Source: a virus. From it: a DNA stretch of 39,679 bases. Position numbers and translations under genes: made by a program. Each line of letters opens with the position of its first letter. The first letter of the stretch is position 1. Under the pieces are notes generated by a model. That model was not told the origin of the DNA. It did no database searches and saw only the letters and a list, made by a program, of their open reading frames with translations. Shown piece after piece: positions 11,618 to 39,679 of the stretch. The stretch spans positions 1-39,679 of IMG/VR virus record IMGVR_UViG_3300022926_000043, one strand, 5' to 3'.

Positions 11618-11863
11618 ATGCAAGTAAAAGGAAATGCAACAGCACTATCTGGAACAACACAGTTTACAGATGCGACTGCTGTTTGGGTATTTAACACTGG
11701 AACTGCTGGTGCTGTGACTGTTAGAAATACTGCCGATGATGGGGATGTTGGAACTATCTATGTTGGTGCTGGTGCTGGCATTGTCATTCACTTGAGTATT
11801 GGTGAAGGCCTTCGTGGTGCAGCTGGTATGCAAGCCACGCAAATTACAGCGACAGGATATTAA
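11618..11863 (+). CDS. Small conserved head-region protein of unknown function (81 aa)
   Basis: The start is the ATG after AGGAAAAGAG; a longer in-frame start at 11582 overlaps the previous gene. The protein is rich in Gly, Ala, Thr and Val (VFNTGTAGAVTVRNT, then IYVGAGAGIVIHLSIGEGL), predicting a compact beta fold. It sits between gp68 and gp21, where marine T4-like phages often carry a small gene of this kind. The compact beta composition would fit a head-decoration or virion protein, but no family is firmly recognised and no function should be inferred beyond head-module membership. Confidence 0.55.
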   Translation: MQVKGNATALSGTTQFTDATAVWVFNTGTAGAVTVRNTADDGDVGTIYVGAGAGIVIHLSIGEGLRGAAGMQATQITATGY

Positions 11864-11867
11864 AACA

Positions 11868-12515
11868 ATGAAACTTATCGCAGAACAGATACAAGAAGTA
11901 GAATACATCACTGAAGAAAAAGACGGTGGTGGTAAAGAAATGAAAATCCGTGGCATCTTTATGCAAGCGGATCAAAAGAATCGTAACGGTAGAGTATATC
12001 CTTTTAATATTCTACAAAAAGAGGTAAACCGTTACAATAAAGAATTTGTTGCTGAAGGTCGTGCATTCGGGGAGCTGGGACATCCAGAAGGCCCTACTGT
12101 CAATCTTGACAGAGTATCGCACATGATTACAAAACTGGAAGCTGATGGAAAGAACTTTGTTGGTGAGGCGAAATTGCTCTCTACTCCAATGGGGGAAATT
12201 GCGAAAGCATTGATTAAAGACGGTGGTAAACTTGGTGTCTCTTCAAGAGGCATGGGTTCACTAGAGTCTAGAAGTGGTGCGAATTATGTGAAAGATGATT
12301 TTTATCTTGCCACTGCGGCAGATATTGTTGCAGACCCATCTGCACCTCAAGCCTTCGTTGAAGGTATCATGGAAGGTAAAGAATGGGTTTGGGATAATGG
12401 ATTACTCAAAGAAGTAGAAATCCAGAAAATCAAGGACGAAATCAATGAGGGTATAAGACGCCGAAACGATAAAGTTTCCGCACTTGCATTCGCAAAGTTT
12501 TTGTCAAAAATTTAA
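11868..12515 (+). CDS. 21: Prohead core protease, gp21
   Basis: 215 residues (T4 gp21: 212). This serine protease of the herpesvirus-assemblin-like fold matures the prohead by cleaving scaffold, core and capsid proteins. The likely catalytic histidine is in GELGHPEG (H72) and the serine in GVSSRG (S125/S126). A conserved Asp lies in VADPSAP (D156). The ATG 4 bases after the preceding stop is preferred over an earlier in-frame start at 11799. Its cleavage rule in T4 is [L/I]-x-E before a small residue, and such a site (FLGE/A) occurs in the gp23 N-terminus here. Confidence 0.93.
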   Translation: MKLIAEQIQEVEYITEEKDGGGKEMKIRGIFMQADQKNRNGRVYPFNILQKEVNRYNKEFVAEGRAFGELGHPEGPTVNLDRVSHMITKLEADGKNFVGEAKLLSTPMGEIAKALIKDGGKLGVSSRGMGSLESRSGANYVKDDFYLATAADIVADPSAPQAFVEGIMEGKEWVWDNGLLKEVEIQKIKDEINEGIRRRNDKVSALAFAKFLSKI

Positions 12516-12559: not shown

Positions 12560-13780
12560 ATGTCAGAACTAGACAAGACAATTGAGGAACTAGAAGCAGA
12601 AATCGCTGCGGAGCTTGAAGAAGCTGCACAGGATGCCCCTAAAAAGGGTGCTGCTAAAGGTGATTCAATGGAAAAAGTGGATGGTGAAGTTCAAGACACT
12701 GGTACTGCTGTTGTTACCCCAGATGAGAAGAAAGGTGCTGATGCTGCAAAAGCAATCAAACCTGTTAAAGATGCTCAGACTAAGGGTGCAAAAGATGCCG
12801 GTGGAGATACTGAACCAACTAAAATTCAAGAACCTCTTGCCGCTGGTGATCATGTAGATCACGATGGTGAAGAACTAGAAGAAGCTAAGATGACTAAAGA
12901 GATGATGAAGGCAGAAATGCAGAAGAAAATGGAAAGCATGAAAGCCCAAGATCTCAAGGCTGCATACGAAGCAATGTGTAACGGTGAAGGTTACGGTGCA
13001 ACAGAAGAAGATAAGTCAGTTGACGAATCTACTTTGGAAGACCGTCTTTCATCTGTAGATGTATCTGAAGATGTTTCTGCACTTACAGAAGGTGAAGAAC
13101 TATCTGAAGAATTTAAAGACAAGGCTGCTACAATTTTTGAAGCTGCTGTTAAATCTAAACTTCGTTCTGAAGTCGAAAGAATTGAAGAAGCAAAAGTTCA
13201 AGAAATCGCTGAAGAAATCAACAGAGTGCGTGATGAGTTGACTGAAAAGGTTGACGCATACATGAACTATGTCGTAGAAGAGTGGATGAAAGAAAACGAA
13301 ATTGCAATTGAACGTGGTCTCAAAGGCGAGATTGCTGAAGATTTCATTTCAGGTCTTAAATCACTTTTTGAAGAACATTACATTGATGTTCCAGACGAAA
13401 AGTATGACATTCTAGGAACTCAGTCTGAAAAGATTGACGAACTTGAAGCAAAACTCAACGAACAAATTGAAAAGACTGCTGCAATGAAAAAGCAGAATGA
13501 CCAATTGGTTCGTGAATCAGTCTTTGCAGAAGTCGCTTCTGACCTCGCCGACACAGAGGTAGAGAAGTTCAAGTCTCTTGCAGAAGATGTAGATTTTACT
13601 GATGAAGATTCTTTCAGAGGTAAACTCGACACGCTAAAGGAAAGTTATTTCCCCAAGGCAACCACTATCGCTGAATCTGTAGACTCTGAAACTGATGGTT
13701 CAGAGGCCTTCGATACAACTGGTGCAATGGCCGCTTACATGGCTGCGATCAGTAAAAATGTAAAGCGAGCCAAAAGCTAA
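12560..13780 (+). CDS. 22: Prohead core scaffold protein, gp22
   Basis: 406 residues, longer than T4 gp22 (269) but typical of marine relatives. It is strongly acidic and alanine/glutamate-rich, with long predicted coiled coils (ELEAEIAAELEEAA at the N-terminus, a helical region near 190-260, and IDELEAKLNEQIEKTAAMK near 290-310). The C-terminus contains GAMAAYMAAISKNVKRA, a conserved end of the family. It forms the internal core around which gp23 assembles and is then degraded by gp21. Its place between gp21 and gp23 confirms the call. Confidence 0.9.
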   Translation: MSELDKTIEELEAEIAAELEEAAQDAPKKGAAKGDSMEKVDGEVQDTGTAVVTPDEKKGADAAKAIKPVKDAQTKGAKDAGGDTEPTKIQEPLAAGDHVDHDGEELEEAKMTKEMMKAEMQKKMESMKAQDLKAAYEAMCNGEGYGATEEDKSVDESTLEDRLSSVDVSEDVSALTEGEELSEEFKDKAATIFEAAVKSKLRSEVERIEEAKVQEIAEEINRVRDELTEKVDAYMNYVVEEWMKENEIAIERGLKGEIAEDFISGLKSLFEEHYIDVPDEKYDILGTQSEKIDELEAKLNEQIEKTAAMKKQNDQLVRESVFAEVASDLADTEVEKFKSLAEDVDFTDEDSFRGKLDTLKESYFPKATTIAESVDSETDGSEAFDTTGAMAAYMAAISKNVKRAKS

Positions 13781-13855: not shown

Positions 13856-15139
13856 ATGTTCCAAACAGAACATCTACAGGAAAAGTGGCAGCCAGTCCTA
13901 GAGCATAACGATCTTCCAGAGATCAAAGACTCTTATAAGAAGGCTGTAACCACAGTTATCCTAGAAAACCAAGAAAAAGCACTTCGTGAAGATAGAGGTT
14001 TCCTCGGCGAAGCTGCGCCAACTAACGCAACTGGCGGTTCAGTTGACAATTGGGATCCAATTATGATTTCACTTGTTCGCCGTGCAATGCCAAACCTAAT
14101 TGCATATGATATTGCTGGTGTTCAGCCAATGACTGGCCCAACAGGACTTATCTTTGCAATGCGTTCACGTTACTCTTCGCAAACAGGCACAGAGTCAATG
14201 TTCAACGAAGCCGATACAGACTTCTCTGGTGCTGGAACTCATGCCGGTACTAACCCTGCTTTACTTAACGATTCACCAGCTGGTACTTATACTAGTGGTA
14301 CTGGTATGACAACTGCTGCTGCAGAAGCACTAGGTGATTCTGCAAGTAACTCTTTCGCAGAAATGGCGTTCTCAATCGAGAAACAAACCGTTACTGCAAA
14401 GTCTCGTGCTCTTAAAGCAGAATACACAATGGAACTTGCTCAGGATCTTAAAGCCATTCATGGTTTGGACGCTGAGACAGAACTTGCAAACATCCTTTCT
14501 GCTGAAATTCTTGCAGAAATCAACCGTGAAGTTATCCGTACAATCTATGTAACTTCTAAGAAGGGTGCTGCTGTCGATACTGCTAACGCTGGTATTTTCG
14601 ACATGGACGTTGACTCAAACGGCCGTTGGTCAGTTGAGAAGTTCAAAGGACTTATGTTCCAAGTTGAGAGAGATGCAAACGCAATCGCTCAAGATACTCG
14701 TAGAGGTAAAGGTAACGTAATTATCTGTTCTTCTGATGTTGCTTCTGCACTTCAGATGGCCGGTGTACTTGATTACACTCCTGCTCTTAACAACAACTTG
14801 AATGTTGACGATGCTGGTAACACATTTGCTGGTGTTCTTAACGGACGTTACAAAGTGTACATCGATCCATATTCAGCGAACTCTGCTGACAAGCAGTTCT
14901 ACGTTGTTGGTTATAAGGGCACATCACCTTATGACGCTGGTATCTTCTACTGCCCATATGTTCCACTACAGATGGTTCGTGCGGTTGGTGAGAACACATT
15001 CCAGCCAAAAATTGGATTTAAGACACGTTACGGTCTTACTGCTAACCCATTTGCAGAAGGTACAACTGCTGCTCTTGGTGCTCTTAACGCCAATGCAAAC
15101 ACTTACTACAGAAAAGTTCAAGTTACGAACATCATGTAA
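13856..15139 (+). CDS. 23: Major capsid protein, gp23
   Basis: 427 residues (T4: 521, marine homologues shorter). N-terminal helices (EHLQEKWQPVLEH) precede a likely gp21 cleavage site FLGE/A at residues 49-53, which would release a delta domain of about 52 residues. Typical HK97-fold gp23 segments follow: RRAMPNLIAYDIAGVQPM, then GLIFAMRSRYSSQ, and EAFS-like FAEMAFSIEKQTVTAKSRA near 170, with LKAEYTMELAQDLKAIHGL after it. It ends with a KPKIGFKTRYG-like segment. Strong late promoter, strong ribosome binding site and a downstream terminator suit its high expression. Confidence 0.97.
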   Translation: MFQTEHLQEKWQPVLEHNDLPEIKDSYKKAVTTVILENQEKALREDRGFLGEAAPTNATGGSVDNWDPIMISLVRRAMPNLIAYDIAGVQPMTGPTGLIFAMRSRYSSQTGTESMFNEADTDFSGAGTHAGTNPALLNDSPAGTYTSGTGMTTAAAEALGDSASNSFAEMAFSIEKQTVTAKSRALKAEYTMELAQDLKAIHGLDAETELANILSAEILAEINREVIRTIYVTSKKGAAVDTANAGIFDMDVDSNGRWSVEKFKGLMFQVERDANAIAQDTRRGKGNVIICSSDVASALQMAGVLDYTPALNNNLNVDDAGNTFAGVLNGRYKVYIDPYSANSADKQFYVVGYKGTSPYDAGIFYCPYVPLQMVRAVGENTFQPKIGFKTRYGLTANPFAEGTTAALGALNANANTYYRKVQVTNIM

Positions 15140-24356: not shown

Positions 24357-24509
24357 TGCAATTCGTAAGTCGCCCTGATGACACAAAATATACCTACTCT
24401 GTGTCGCAAACTAGGGTTTGTCGGTATCCCCCCAAAAACCGTCATTATAAATAATGGTGATACGCCGAATGGGTATCACACTGTATCTTGCTTAATAAAG
24501 GAGAAACAA
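24357..24509 (+). promoter_or_regulatory. Structured hsp20 leader with ROSE-like SD-occluding hairpin
   Basis: Four successive stem-loops precede the last element: GACACA/TGTGTC (24380-24405), CAAAC/GTTTG (24407-24420), CGGT/ACCG (24422-24441) and GTGATAC/GTATCAC (24457-24479). The final stretch pairs TCTTGCT (24486-24492) with AGGAGA (24499-24504) around a TAATAA loop, leaving one bulged G. This burying of AGGAG by a U-U-G-C-U sequence matches ROSE-type RNA thermometers known upstream of bacterial hsp20 genes. The thermometer role is inference. Confidence 0.45.
24446..24453 (+). promoter_or_regulatory. Late promoter TATAAATA inside the hsp20 leader
   Basis: Perfect late consensus predicting initiation near 24459. 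That would shorten the leader, trimming the upstream stem-loops while keeping the hairpin over the ribosome binding site. hsp20 could therefore be expressed both early and late. Confidence 0.6.
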
Positions 24510-24944
24510 ATGGTAAATACAGCTCTTACAGACCCTTTTGATAGGGTTAAAACCTACTCTGTCGGTTTCGACAGAATGTTTGACAGACTATTTGACGATA
24601 GTTTTGTTACAACAACAAACTACCCACCTTACAATATCGTAAAACTTTCTGATTCTGACTACGCAATTCAGATTGCAGTAGCTGGTTTTGGTAAGGATGA
24701 TATTGAGATTGAAACCAAGGAAAATGTCCTTTCAATCAAAACCAAAGAAAAAGATGAGAGTGAAGTTGTGGACGATGCAACATACCTACACAAAGGTATT
24801 TCAAATCGTGCCTTCAAAAGAACTTTCACCATCTCTGATGATGTGGTAGTAAAAGGTGCAACCTTTGAAAATGGGTTGTTAAACATTGAACTTGAAAGAA
24901 TCATTCCAGAGGAAAAGAAACCTCGCCTGATTAAAATCAAGTAA
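24510..24944 (+). CDS. hsp20: Small heat-shock protein, Hsp20/IbpA family
   Basis: 144 residues (E. coli IbpA: 137). The alpha-crystallin domain runs from about NYPPYNIVKL (37) to the FENGLLNIEL signature (119-128), with the family AVAGF segment at 56-60 and a C-terminal I-x-I motif (IKI, 141-143) used for oligomer assembly. It is a chaperone that holds unfolding proteins, and in phages it may support capsid assembly. The start has the strong AAAGGAGAAACA leader; an in-frame ATG at 24378 lies upstream in the structured leader and is rejected. Confidence 0.93.
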   Translation: MVNTALTDPFDRVKTYSVGFDRMFDRLFDDSFVTTTNYPPYNIVKLSDSDYAIQIAVAGFGKDDIEIETKENVLSIKTKEKDESEVVDDATYLHKGISNRAFKRTFTISDDVVVKGATFENGLLNIELERIIPEEKKPRLIKIK

Positions 24945-27716: not shown

Positions 27717-28790
27717 TTGACACAATCTTTTTCAAATTTCATTGTAGAAGAACCAAAAGAACAGAAGTATAAACTTCTTATCCTTTCGCATGACGATCCA
27801 CTAGACCCTAACGAAACAGGGCCTATGATTCGTAAGATTGCATCTAAAATGGGTATTGAAGTGTATCTTGCTGAGTTGTCTGGTTCTTATATGGAATCTG
27901 ATGGAGACAGTAAACTAGTATATTCTTTTGCAGTTAATGATGAAGGTAAGGCAGAACTTCCTACAATGAAGTCAGATGCAGAATACGAAAAACCTTTTAA
28001 GATTAATCCAAAAGACACTCTAGTTATGGCTAGAGGACTTGGTTCTACAACAAAACTTGGAAACCGTTCATGGTGGGTAACTATTAATAATCTTGAACAT
28101 GAAGGTTATACAGTAATCAATTCTACAAGATGCCACGATATCTGTGGAGACAAATGGTTTAACCAAGTTGTGTTTCAAAGAGAAAACTTTAATACCCCCA
28201 AAACAGTTCTAGTAAGACATGCAGAAGGTGCCGAGGCGGCCGCAGAAAAACTAGGAAACAAGTTTCCTATGATTCTAAAAACTTCTACAGGTTCTAGAGG
28301 TGTTGGTGTAATGTGGATTGAGAGTTTAAAATCTCTTCACAGTATTGTACAACTTCTATATAGAGAAGATGAATATGTAGATATCATTCTACAAGAATAT
28401 GTTAAGACAGATTACGATGTTAGAGTTATTGTTGTCGCTGGACAAATATTGGGTGCAATGAAACGCCCTGTTATCGGTGGTGACTTTAGAAGTAATGTTT
28501 CTCAAGGTTCTGAACCAGAGATACATGAGTTGACTGAATTAGAAAAAGAAGAATCAATTCGGGCAGCTAAAGCAGTGGACGGAATGATGGTCGGAGTTGA
28601 CTTTATTCCCGCCAAGAACAGAGATAAAGATAAACCATATCTTATTGAGGTAAATTCTACGCCTGGACTTATGGGTATCGAGGCAGTGTTTAATAGTGCT
28701 GCATCAAAACCATTAATTAAAGATCAGAAAAGAAGTATCACAAAAGAGATATTGTCTATGTTTATGAATAGAAAAAATTGGAGTATATAA
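27717..28790 (+). CDS. RimK-like ATP-grasp ligase
   Basis: 357 residues from a TTG directly after the regA stop; no closer ATG exists and the next Met is residue 37. The C-terminal ATP-grasp domain shows K188 (MILKTSTGSRG), the loop GSRGVGV (192-198), IILQEYVKTDYDVRVIVV, and the metal-binding IEVNSTPGL (E311, N313). This is the pattern of RimK/LysX-type glutamate or amino-acid ligases; RimK modifies ribosomal protein S6. The N-terminus SFSNFIVE resembles a capsid-targeting sequence (see findings). The true substrate is unknown; host translation modification is a plausible but untested idea. Confidence 0.8.
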   Translation: MTQSFSNFIVEEPKEQKYKLLILSHDDPLDPNETGPMIRKIASKMGIEVYLAELSGSYMESDGDSKLVYSFAVNDEGKAELPTMKSDAEYEKPFKINPKDTLVMARGLGSTTKLGNRSWWVTINNLEHEGYTVINSTRCHDICGDKWFNQVVFQRENFNTPKTVLVRHAEGAEAAAEKLGNKFPMILKTSTGSRGVGVMWIESLKSLHSIVQLLYREDEYVDIILQEYVKTDYDVRVIVVAGQILGAMKRPVIGGDFRSNVSQGSEPEIHELTELEKEESIRAAKAVDGMMVGVDFIPAKNRDKDKPYLIEVNSTPGLMGIEAVFNSAASKPLIKDQKRSITKEILSMFMNRKNWSI

Positions 28791-37445: not shown

Positions 37446-37462
37446 TTGTGTTATTATAAATA
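37429..37462 (+). promoter_or_regulatory. Overlapping early and late promoters before the 37.5-kb block
   Basis: The early promoter is TTGACA (37429-37434), 17 bp, TATTAT (37452-37457). The late sequence TATAAATA occupies 37455-37462 and shares three bases with the -10 box. Both precede the gene at 37499, which could therefore be transcribed in both phases from nearly the same start site. Confidence 0.7.
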
Positions 37463-37498: not shown

Positions 37499-38743
37499 AT
37501 GTTAAAATTTTCAAGTTTTCTCACCGAAGATAAAGGTGGGAAAAACCTACACCTAGAACACATAGAGGACGAAATTCTAAATTTCGGAGTTGATGGCGGC
37601 CGAGCTGCTATCAACTTTATTCAGTCTTTGCGTGACATGTTGGCCGGTTCTTCTCGTTCTTCTGTAAACATGACTGTAAAGTGGGATGGAGCTCCTGCTA
37701 TCTTTGCTGGAATTGATCCAGAAGATGGACGGTTCTTTGTTGCAAAGAAATCAGTATTTAATATAGAACCAAAACTTTACAAGTCAAACGCAGAGATTGA
37801 TGCAGACGGATTGTCTGGTGCATTGAACTCTAAGTTTAAGATTGCACTTGCAGAGTTTTCTAAGTTGGGTATCACAGGTGTTCTTCAAGGTGACTTGATG
37901 TTTACTGATGATGTTTCTACAGAAACTATTGATGGTAAATCTTTCCTAACATTCCAACCAAACACAATTGTATATGCAGTTGATGCGAACTCAGAATTGG
38001 GTAAACAAATCAATAATGCAAAGATTGGTGTAGTGTGGCACACCACATATACAGGCAAAACACTCCAAGACATGAAGGCCTCTTTTGGTGCAAATATCAA
38101 AGGATTGCAGAAACCATCTACAGTTTGGATGGACGATGCAACCTATAAAGATGTTTCTGGTAAAGCAACAATGACTGAAAAAGAAACAGAAGTTGTAACT
38201 TCACACTTGTCTATGGCTGGTTCTACATTCAGAAAAATTAATTCCCAACTTCTTACTGGTTTTCTTACAATTCAAAATAGTTTCACTGGTGATTTTTCTG
38301 GTGCTTCTCTCAAGACATACAATAATAGTATGGTGAGAAAGGGACAGAAGATTACTAATCCAAAGAAACATGCTCAAGGATATATTTCTTGGGTTGAAGA
38401 GGTGTTTAATAAAAAGATTGGCAAACTAAAAACTCCTGTTAAAAAACAAGAAGTAGAAAATAATAAAAAAGAAATAGTTCGTGAACTAAAGAAACATATT
38501 GTAAACCTATCTAATATTATTGAGTTTCAAAACCATATCGTAGAAGCTAAGATGGGTATTGTAAAGAAACTAAATACTGTAAAGAGTATTGGAACTTTTA
38601 TTAAAACTGAAAATGGTTTTAAAGTTGTAAACCCAGAAGGGTATGTTGCAATTGATAGAATTTCTGGTAATGCAGTAAAACTTGTGGATAGAATGGAATT
38701 TAGTTTCAATAACTTTACTGCAATCAAGGCGTGGGATAAATGA
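37499..38743 (+). CDS. Uncharacterised protein with ligase-like KxDG motif (414 aa)
   Basis: The sequence MTVKWDGAPAIFAG (58-71) has the KxDG core of covalent nucleotidyltransferases (DNA/RNA ligases, capping enzymes), with K61 as candidate nucleotidyl acceptor. GVLQGDLMF (127-135) sits where motif III (DGEL-type) would be, and MVRKGQKI lies in the C-terminal half. The usual Arg after KxDG is absent. The N-terminus MLKFSSFLTE resembles a capsid-targeting signal. I recall similar proteins annotated only as hypothetical in marine T4-like phages. Nucleotidyltransferase activity is a hypothesis. Confidence 0.55.
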   Translation: MLKFSSFLTEDKGGKNLHLEHIEDEILNFGVDGGRAAINFIQSLRDMLAGSSRSSVNMTVKWDGAPAIFAGIDPEDGRFFVAKKSVFNIEPKLYKSNAEIDADGLSGALNSKFKIALAEFSKLGITGVLQGDLMFTDDVSTETIDGKSFLTFQPNTIVYAVDANSELGKQINNAKIGVVWHTTYTGKTLQDMKASFGANIKGLQKPSTVWMDDATYKDVSGKATMTEKETEVVTSHLSMAGSTFRKINSQLLTGFLTIQNSFTGDFSGASLKTYNNSMVRKGQKITNPKKHAQGYISWVEEVFNKKIGKLKTPVKKQEVENNKKEIVRELKKHIVNLSNIIEFQNHIVEAKMGIVKKLNTVKSIGTFIKTENGFKVVNPEGYVAIDRISGNAVKLVDRMEFSFNNFTAIKAWDK

Positions 38744-39033
38744 GACCACTTTCATTTTTTCTTAAAGAGGGTATTAAGTTACAACTGGTTCGTGGAAAGA
38801 ATCAAGATGTGTTGAAGATGTGGAAAACTGGTGAGAGTAGTTGGGTAGAAGTTAGAGGTAAACCAAATTTTGAAGTGAATTTTGATCCAAAAGATCCACT
38901 TCATAAGGCAATAAAGGCTCTTGGTAAATCTGCAAATATCTCCGATTTTGTAAATGGTGATATTGTAAATATTAATCCAAAGCACCCAAATGCAAAGAAG
39001 GCGTTAGATACAGCAAAGGCTTTAATGAAATGA
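38740..39033 (+). CDS. Uncharacterised small protein (97 aa)
   Basis: Begins in an ATGA overlap with the preceding gene. The N-terminus MRPLSFFLKEGI resembles a capsid-targeting sequence with a possible gp21 site FLKE/G. The remainder (LVRGKNQDVLKMWKTGE, then WVEVRGKP and NPKHPNAKKALDTAKALM) is basic and mixed alpha/beta. No domain is recognised. The tight coupling to its neighbours suggests a shared role. Confidence 0.6.
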   Translation: MRPLSFFLKEGIKLQLVRGKNQDVLKMWKTGESSWVEVRGKPNFEVNFDPKDPLHKAIKALGKSANISDFVNGDIVNINPKHPNAKKALDTAKALMK

Positions 39034-39425
39034 AAACATTTGACGACCTAATGTTAGAACTTATTGAGAGAAAAGCTTTGTCTGTTTCTCAACGAAGAAA
39101 AATGGGTTTGCGAATGAAAAAAATGATGAAGAACCCTGCTGTTCAGGCAAAAATTGCCAGATCAAAAAAGAAGTTGGCGACTAATTCAAAAATTCAACAG
39201 AGAGCAAACAAAGCTGCGAAACAGATAATTATTAAAAAGTTTGCTGGTATGGATAAACAGGATTATGCAAATCTTCCTTTAATGCAAAGACAGGCACTTG
39301 ATGATAGAATTGTTTCTAAGAAGGGTGCTGCGATTAAAAAGATTGCAAAAAAACTTATTATAAAGTTAAAGAAGGATGAGTTGGAAAGACTTAAAAAGGC
39401 AAGAGAATTGGGTAGTGAACAATGA
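39030..39425 (+). CDS. Highly basic protein of unknown function (131 aa)
   Basis: Overlaps the preceding stop by four bases. It is extremely Lys/Arg-rich (RRKMGLRMKKMMKN, SKKKLATNSKIQQRANKAAKQIIIKK, KKIAKKLIIKLKKDEL), predicting helices that bind nucleic acid. I recall comparable basic proteins of unknown function in cyanophage genomes. The N-terminus MKTFDDLMLELIE fits the family of targeting-like starts seen in the neighbours. A DNA-condensing or internal-head protein is an attractive idea given its charge, but it is inference. Confidence 0.65.
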   Translation: MKTFDDLMLELIERKALSVSQRRKMGLRMKKMMKNPAVQAKIARSKKKLATNSKIQQRANKAAKQIIIKKFAGMDKQDYANLPLMQRQALDDRIVSKKGAAIKKIAKKLIIKLKKDELERLKKARELGSEQ

Positions 39426-39679
39426 AAACTTTTAAGGACATTAGAGAGGCTCGTGGGGATACTTGTGTATTCACTTTTGGTAGATTCAATCCACCAACCA
39501 CAGGGCATGAAAAACTATTAGAAGCTGTTGCGACACAGGCAAAGAAGAACCCCGGCGCACCTTACTATGTGTTCGCAAGTCACTCTGAAAACGCAAAGAA
39601 AGATCCACTACCGTATTCTAAAAAAGTTGCATATATGAAGAATATGTTCCCAAAACATTCACGGAACATTGTTGTAGAC
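39422..39679 (+). CDS. Nucleotidylyltransferase-like protein (N-terminal part, cut by the window end)
   Basis: The open frame runs off the window after 86 residues. FTFGRFNPPTTGHEKLL (17-33) is the HxGH-type nucleotide-binding motif (here TTGH) of the cytidylyl/adenylyltransferase superfamily that includes NMN adenylyltransferase. A VFASHSENAKKDPLPYSKKV segment follows in the expected strand position. The N-terminus MKTFKDIREA matches the neighbours' targeting-like start. Overlaps the previous stop (ATGA). Substrate is unknown; NAD metabolism is possible. Lack of the C-terminal ISSTxxR-like motif here reflects truncation by the window. Confidence 0.75.
   Translation, partial: MKTFKDIREARGDTCVFTFGRFNPPTTGHEKLLEAVATQAKKNPGAPYYVFASHSENAKKDPLPYSKKVAYMKNMFPKHSRNIVVD

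Follow-up and report, generated by a model that had tools for sequence, protein, structure and literature searches.

The closest described counterparts of the locus analyzed here are proteins carried in the head of phage T4. The T4 internal proteins IPII and IPIII begin with the capsid-targeting sequence (CTS) MKTYQEFIAE/A, and T4 has the prohead protease gp21 and late promoters of the type TATAAATA, the T4 late-promoter sequence. T4 Alt, a packaged ADP-ribosyltransferase that is processed by gp21, is ejected into the host. Mutagenesis of IPIII showed that residues 4 and 7 govern targeting and residues 8 and 10 govern processing (PMC9026906). Enzymes have also been found repeatedly in the virions of cyanophages, where a reason for their presence has been lacking and contamination is a standing worry. 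These include the cytidylyltransferase/NMNAT-like proteins S-SM1 GC190, S-CREM2 ORF154 and S-SZBM1_140, all found by mass spectrometry, for which the respective papers offer no loading signal. A further likeness is to the ejection proteins of SPN3US and phiKZ, in which many head-loaded proteins are cut by a prohead protease (PMC5694885, PMC10052503); those are giant phages with propeptides of their own, and the likeness is one of description.

In this study, the window is the whole stretch of DNA that was analyzed, the 39,679 nucleotides (39.7 kb) of virus record IMGVR_UViG_3300022926_000043, which derives from a T4-like marine phage. It holds the head genes gp20, gp21, gp22 and gp23 and a replication module, and after gp41 there are four genes up to the contig end, each overlapping the next by 4 nt. 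We consider it highly probable that this cluster, at 37499-39679, forms an operon within the replication module that is transcribed late and encodes head cargo, each protein bearing a CTS of 9-13 residues. The features on which this reading draws are as follows.

11799..12515, + strand: gp21 prohead protease homologue, from sequence and a match to the Melnitz 'prohead core serine protease'
13856..15139, + strand: gp23 major capsid protein with maturation site FLGE/A, from sequence
27717..28790, + strand: RimK-like ATP-grasp protein, TTG start, N-terminus MTQSFSNFIVEEP, CTS-like MTQSFSNFIVE/E, PF08443 (1e-34)
37455..37462, + strand: T4-type late promoter TATAAATA, 44 bp upstream of the tagged gene that opens the cluster at 37499
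37499..38743, + strand: DUF6267 protein, 414 aa, N-terminus MLKFSSFLTEDK, CTS MLKFSSFLTE/D with F4, F7, L8 and E10, PF19782 (2e-106)
37499..37528, + strand: capsid-targeting-like sequence of the DUF6267 protein, from the tag profile and an alignment of relatives
38740..39033, + strand: basic protein of no known family, 97 aa, pI 9.9, N-terminus MRPLSFFLKEG, CTS-like MRPLSFFLKE/G
39030..39425, + strand: very basic protein, 131 aa, pI 10.6, charge +23, N-terminus MKTFDDLMLELIERK, CTS-like MKTFDDLMLELIE/R, phrog_23027
39422..39679, + strand: 5' part of the gene for a cytidylyltransferase-like protein, truncated by the contig end, N-terminus MKTFKDIREARGD, short-form CTS MKTFKDIRE/A, PF01467

A sequence-only reading of this DNA had claimed that the four clustered genes and the RimK-like gene start with CTS-like sequences. 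All five N-termini were recovered letter for letter and all begin in a T4-like manner, although the 38740 protein has leucine rather than an aromatic residue at position 4. The accompanying statement that IPI, IPII and IPIII all begin MKTYQEFIAE held for IPII and IPIII (MKTYQEFIAEA) and failed for IPI, as the T4 ORF that we recognize as, and presume to be, IPI begins MKTFKEFTST. The gp21 homologue and a gp23 site of matching specificity, FLGE/A, were both found in the same window as had been stated; the true start of gp21 is probably near 11868 (MKLIAEQIQEVEYITE), and the corresponding gp23 site of Methylophilales phage Melnitz is FLSE/A. Melnitz has the closest relative of the DUF6267 protein in the phage collection, with 75% identity to the window protein.

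Pfam profiles upheld the nucleotidylyltransferase-like label (PF01467, 25.2 bits against a cut-off of 21, with 86 residues available) and the ATP-grasp label (PF08443, 120 bits against a cut-off of 21). No family was found for the 38740 product in Pfam and PHROG searches, and its homologues occur in only L011 and L047 among the loci searched; the 39030 product had a PHROG match only. For the 37499 product the DUF6267 profile scored 356.9 bits against a cut-off of 27. Its domain begins at residue 16 and residues 1-18 are disordered in the predicted structure, and the tag is therefore an extra piece attached to the folded domain. The description of this protein as 'ligase-like' on account of its KxDG stands at the level of motifs. 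Among the covalent-nucleotidyltransferase motifs (I, KxDG; IV-like, EGxV; V-like, K), residues K61, D63, G64, E380, G381 and V383 are invariant and K394 is kept in at least 90%, but the fold and profile tests gave no confirmation: the fold search against the PDB returned no significant match (the RNA-editing ligase 1xdn ranked sixth with E=1.6, and model confidence was low around motif IV), a PDB sequence search found nothing meaningful, and hhalign detected no relation to T4 RNA ligase 2 (Rnl2).

The tags share with the T4 CTS an aromatic residue at position 4, a large hydrophobic residue at 7, [IL] at 8, E at 10 and often A at 11. They lie within approximately the first 10-19 residues, have aromatic or hydrophobic residues at positions 4 and 7, and are closed by an [LI]-x-E site whose glutamate is invariant by family at position 10, 9 or 13. 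In four families the tag anchors stay fixed among relatives while the filler residues drift, and the anchors that are kept are the positions that T4 mutagenesis marks for targeting and processing. In the DUF6267 relatives F4 and E10 were each present in 33/33 sequences, as was [LI]8; where the alignment extends to sequences with as little as 23% identity to the window protein, few columns stay invariant, and F4 and E10 are two of these, alongside the KxDG motif. The cytidylyltransferase tag has a form shorter by one residue, F4-x-x-[IL]7-x-E9/A, with F4 and E9 in 28/28 relatives, I/L7 in 27/28, and nine different residues at position 8. In the 39030 family L7, L11 and E13 are invariant in 13/13 unique N-termini, whereas position 10 varies (E/D/S/N), and the cut is therefore likely to be after E13. 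The shorter form and the L11-x-E13 form are both differences from IPII and IPIII. A further difference is that the cargo here extends beyond small basic proteins to conserved enzymes with orthologues across marine T4-like phages. Similarly, the enzymes of the window are head-carried candidates in the manner of Alt, but have no sequence relation to it, being of the nucleotidyltransferase, DUF6267 and ATP-grasp types.

These N-termini are not a product of chance. A tag profile identified four window N-termini scoring at least 7.5, compared with 0.23 expected from shuffled sequences, with the window sequences being part of the training set; a fixed regular expression matched two, compared with 0.08 expected. 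In ten pooled T4-like genomes, a strict regular expression matched 20/2132 N-termini, whereas for Met positions inside proteins the count was 9/7997 (p=4e-8). In a search of 211 T4 proteins with the DUF6267 profile, IPII ranked second (residues 1-13, E 0.017) and IPIII sixth (residues 1-11, E 0.041), a result that is weak alone. The tag profile had no match in N4 and cyanosiphovirus PSS2, phages without the T4 head system, and few clean tags were seen in HTVC008M and S-PM2. As a genome-wide classifier the tag regular expression by itself was rejected, its power being modest (seven or fewer matches per genome). A side observation concerns T4 gp61.1 (L216:467-631; NC_000866 18966-19130, minus strand), annotated as hypothetical, which begins MKTFKEFIKED and has a profile score equal to that of IPII and IPIII; by this resemblance it is a candidate for an unrecognized T4 internal protein.

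The window contains nine exact copies of TATAAATA, all on the + strand, relative to 2.35 expected, and none of 100 shuffles reached nine. The copy at 37455 sits inside the replication module, and others are located 26-61 bp before gp18, gp22, gp23, gene 15225 and hsp20. In Melnitz such a promoter likewise precedes the first of the tagged genes (at 12203), by 47 bp. At 120 loci from environmental contigs with the tag pattern, among the matches listed, ATAAATA, the core of this sequence, preceded 55/123 tagged genes at a distance of no more than 150 bp and did so for 8/108 replication genes, although the p-value of 4e-11, like the others here, is too small and overstates the evidence because the loci and genes share descent. 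At the same loci the sequence was upstream of 22/79 structural genes, and in the antisense orientation it was found at 0 tagged versus 1 replication gene. The promoter sequence at 37455 and those of the relatives thus point to synthesis at late times for the cluster, though not for RimK. In passing, the start of the hsp20-like ORF at 24378-24944 is probably at 24507 (MVNTALTDPFDRV) rather than 24378, with a late promoter at 24446, 61 bp earlier.

Published virion proteomes contain tagged homologs. In the study by Sullivan et al. 2010, the cytidylyltransferase T4-GC190 was among the proteins detected when S-SM1 virions were purified (PMC3037559), and the gene for it begins MKKFSAFLNEA. The S-SZBM1 virion list contains the cytidylyltransferase _140 (PMC9146016), whose tag is MRFRQFIIEA, and the adjoining DUF6267 protein S-SZBM1_141 has no tag and is absent from that list. 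For S-CREM2, 52 virion proteins are listed (PMC10665884), of which ORF6 (MKDFDSFLEE, S-AdoMet lyase), ORF13 (MKDLHSFLTE), ORF14 (MKRFDAFLTE, a kinase), ORF136 (MQTFSMFFSE) and ORF154 (MKNFSSFLTE, cytidylyltransferase) are tagged; ORF15 has the short tag form MNFSEFNES. The cytidylyltransferase homolog is therefore present in the virions of three cyanophages and tagged in all three, with the same kind of tag as the 39422 protein to which it is related. The DUF6267 proteins of the cyanophages S-SM1, S-SZBM1 and S-PM2 are without a tag, and those of the window and Melnitz are tagged.

With a profile trained without S-CREM2, six of the eight top-scoring non-structural S-CREM2 proteins were positive by mass spectrometry (hypergeometric p=8e-5), the top three were virion proteins, and five proteins scored at least 10 compared with 0.23 from shuffles. 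A simple regular expression gave 5/8 versus 21/185 (p=0.0013), but was written when the S-CREM2 N-termini were already known, whereas the profile training set excluded them. Enrichment was confined to the top of the ranking: taken across the whole set of S-CREM2 non-structural proteins, a rank test did not reach significance (p=0.11), many of the positive hypotheticals being tail-region proteins that lack the tag. For S-CREM2 we used the starts as annotated, since a simple gene caller recovered only 157/219 of them exactly. Virion proteins without a tag include S-SZBM1_139 and S-CREM2 155/156. Two S-CREM2 proteins are of separate interest. ORF6 (L142:3837-5081), the CTS-tagged S-AdoMet lyase in the virion (PF23780, 2e-19), is a possible pre-loaded anti-restriction protein. 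ORF12 (L142:7704-10313), a virion protein annotated as Cas9/Csn1, contains the sequence RFASFMAEA, which resembles the tag; it has no Pfam match, which makes the Cas9 label doubtful, and an alternative start at L17 was discarded because the codon is CTG, leaving the tag at residues 18-26 of the annotated protein.

The pattern is not restricted to these genomes. When 2.9 million viral contigs were scanned at the DNA level, the pattern M-K-x-F-x-x-F-[hydrophobic]-x-E-A had at least 124 matches and, among the matches listed, 123/124 were at ORF starts, in contrast to 10/54 for a permuted control pattern that had 54 matches in the whole collection. Genes of the T4 core were found on 87/120 tag contigs, among the matches listed, versus 4/54 control contigs. 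The tagged proteins, again among those listed, form at least 35 clusters unrelated beyond the tag, with members that include cytidylyltransferases, DUF6267, DUF5661, DUF192, DUF6321, zeta-toxin-like kinase, GNAT and DPBB. On balance, it seems probable to us that a portable N-terminal address code is common to T4-like phages of water bacteria, and that it brings a large and changing set of pre-made effectors into the head, from which they are injected: an anti-restriction S-AdoMet lyase, kinases, nucleotidyltransferases, an acetyltransferase, a zeta-like kinase and dozens of unknowns. If so, the injected effectors of uncultured phages could be listed by sequence alone. One contig (L238:3736-4529) has two adjacent tagged genes, one matching a GNAT acetyltransferase and the other, with no Pfam match, having a YHGTxxxxADKI start that looks ADP-ribosyltransferase-like.

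The reading of the tags as packaging signals has to be weighed against the prospect that they are short amphipathic extensions that share ancestry or composition, with no packaging role, and that the virion matches are contamination. Carry-over in mass spectrometry is possible, as the S-CREM2 authors themselves note for CsCl preparations (PMC10665884), and some tag-like proteins (S-SZBM1_191, S-CREM2 16 and 32) went undetected in virions. Such an origin is nevertheless very improbable given the number of unrelated clusters that share the tag, its placement at ORF starts relative to the permuted pattern, anchors that are invariant while their neighbors vary, the enrichment of virion proteins in S-CREM2, a genome left out of the profile, and the late promoters. 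It is also unlikely, if less so, that the tags target proteins to the prohead core for a structural role, as a scaffold or DNA-condensing core in the manner of IPIII or gp68, with injection incidental. The 38740 and 39030 proteins are small and very basic, and IPIII affects head morphology in T4 (PMC9026906), but a role as scaffold is not obvious for the majority of the tagged proteins, which resemble enzymes or have known domains (nucleotidyltransferase, S-AdoMet lyase, kinase, GNAT, zeta-like kinase).

Among the five tagged candidates the case is weakest for RimK, its tag being conserved and a late promoter lacking. That it is an ordinary cytoplasmic enzyme, with an N-terminus resembling the tag by chance or as a relic while the operon proteins are packaged, is a real though not the favored possibility. 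The gene at 27717 is directly behind regA, and a late promoter was found at 0/25 RimK loci. Conversely, the tag persists in divergent homologs (MTESFSQFITEE, MEKFKSFITEE and, in Mosig, MQVQPFKNYLEEA), in which TTG and GTG starts are also retained. The RimK-like protein of YerA41 is annotated 'structural protein', as is that of a second Yersinia phage, vB_Yru_GN1 (hits H66 and H67), and the list of YerA41 particle-associated proteins includes a ribosomal protein modification protein, but that list also has many replication enzymes.

We prefer the reading in which a T4-type CTS directs these proteins into the head. The position-specific conservation of the T4-critical residues, the published mass spectrometry of tagged homologs and the late promoters all speak for it; it is on this agreement between several different kinds of evidence, not on the p-values, that the argument rests. 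The sequence-only reading is supported with respect to targeting. For the proteins of the 37499-39679 cluster both packaging and trimming are likely, trimming being predicted from the conserved [LI]-x-E sites together with the presence of gp21, and the enzymes probably travel in the particle and reach the host together with the DNA, as the analogy with T4 would have it. The late promoter in the replication module, the step with sequence evidence, would cause the tagged proteins to be made while proheads assemble. The tag, laid out as M, one or two polar or basic residues, an aromatic residue at 4, a large hydrophobic residue at 7 and then [LI]-x-E, may dock them on the prohead core, after which gp21 would cut behind the Glu and leave the enzyme free in the head. 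As for T4 proteins, those freed would stay in the head and exit with the DNA into the host, where they may act early in infection, probably in nucleotide or NAD metabolism and restriction evasion; the first of these roles is what the cytidylyltransferase/NMNAT type would suggest.

Packaging by means of a CTS is known from T4. As far as our literature search shows, its application to conserved enzymes in marine T4-like phages is new, and so are the variant spacings, the link to late promoters inside a replication module and the explanation of the cyanophage virion enzymes; neither CTS surveys in marine phages nor papers linking those enzymes to a CTS were found in the literature searched, with subscription papers and most preprints outside its scope. 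A tag that predicts such enzymes supplies a mechanism and a test for their presence. Where the T4 capsid-targeting system had covered a few small coliphage proteins, it now takes in conserved enzymes of abundant marine phages. Candidates for injected proteins of host takeover and anti-defense can, moreover, be sought from sequence alone, and there is the suggestion that 'auxiliary metabolic' genes in some cases act at time zero, from the particle, and not after expression.

Two minor observations relate to Melnitz. The annotated start of its DUF6267 gene (L002:13272-14528) is three codons early (MLTLINFSKYITED), and a start at 13281 gives MINFSKYITED, as in relatives. At 65855-66523 (L003:15855-16523) Melnitz encodes a zeta-toxin/AAA_33-like P-loop kinase with the tag MKTFAELQEG, the apparent HTVC008M counterpart of which begins MIPFILKEG.
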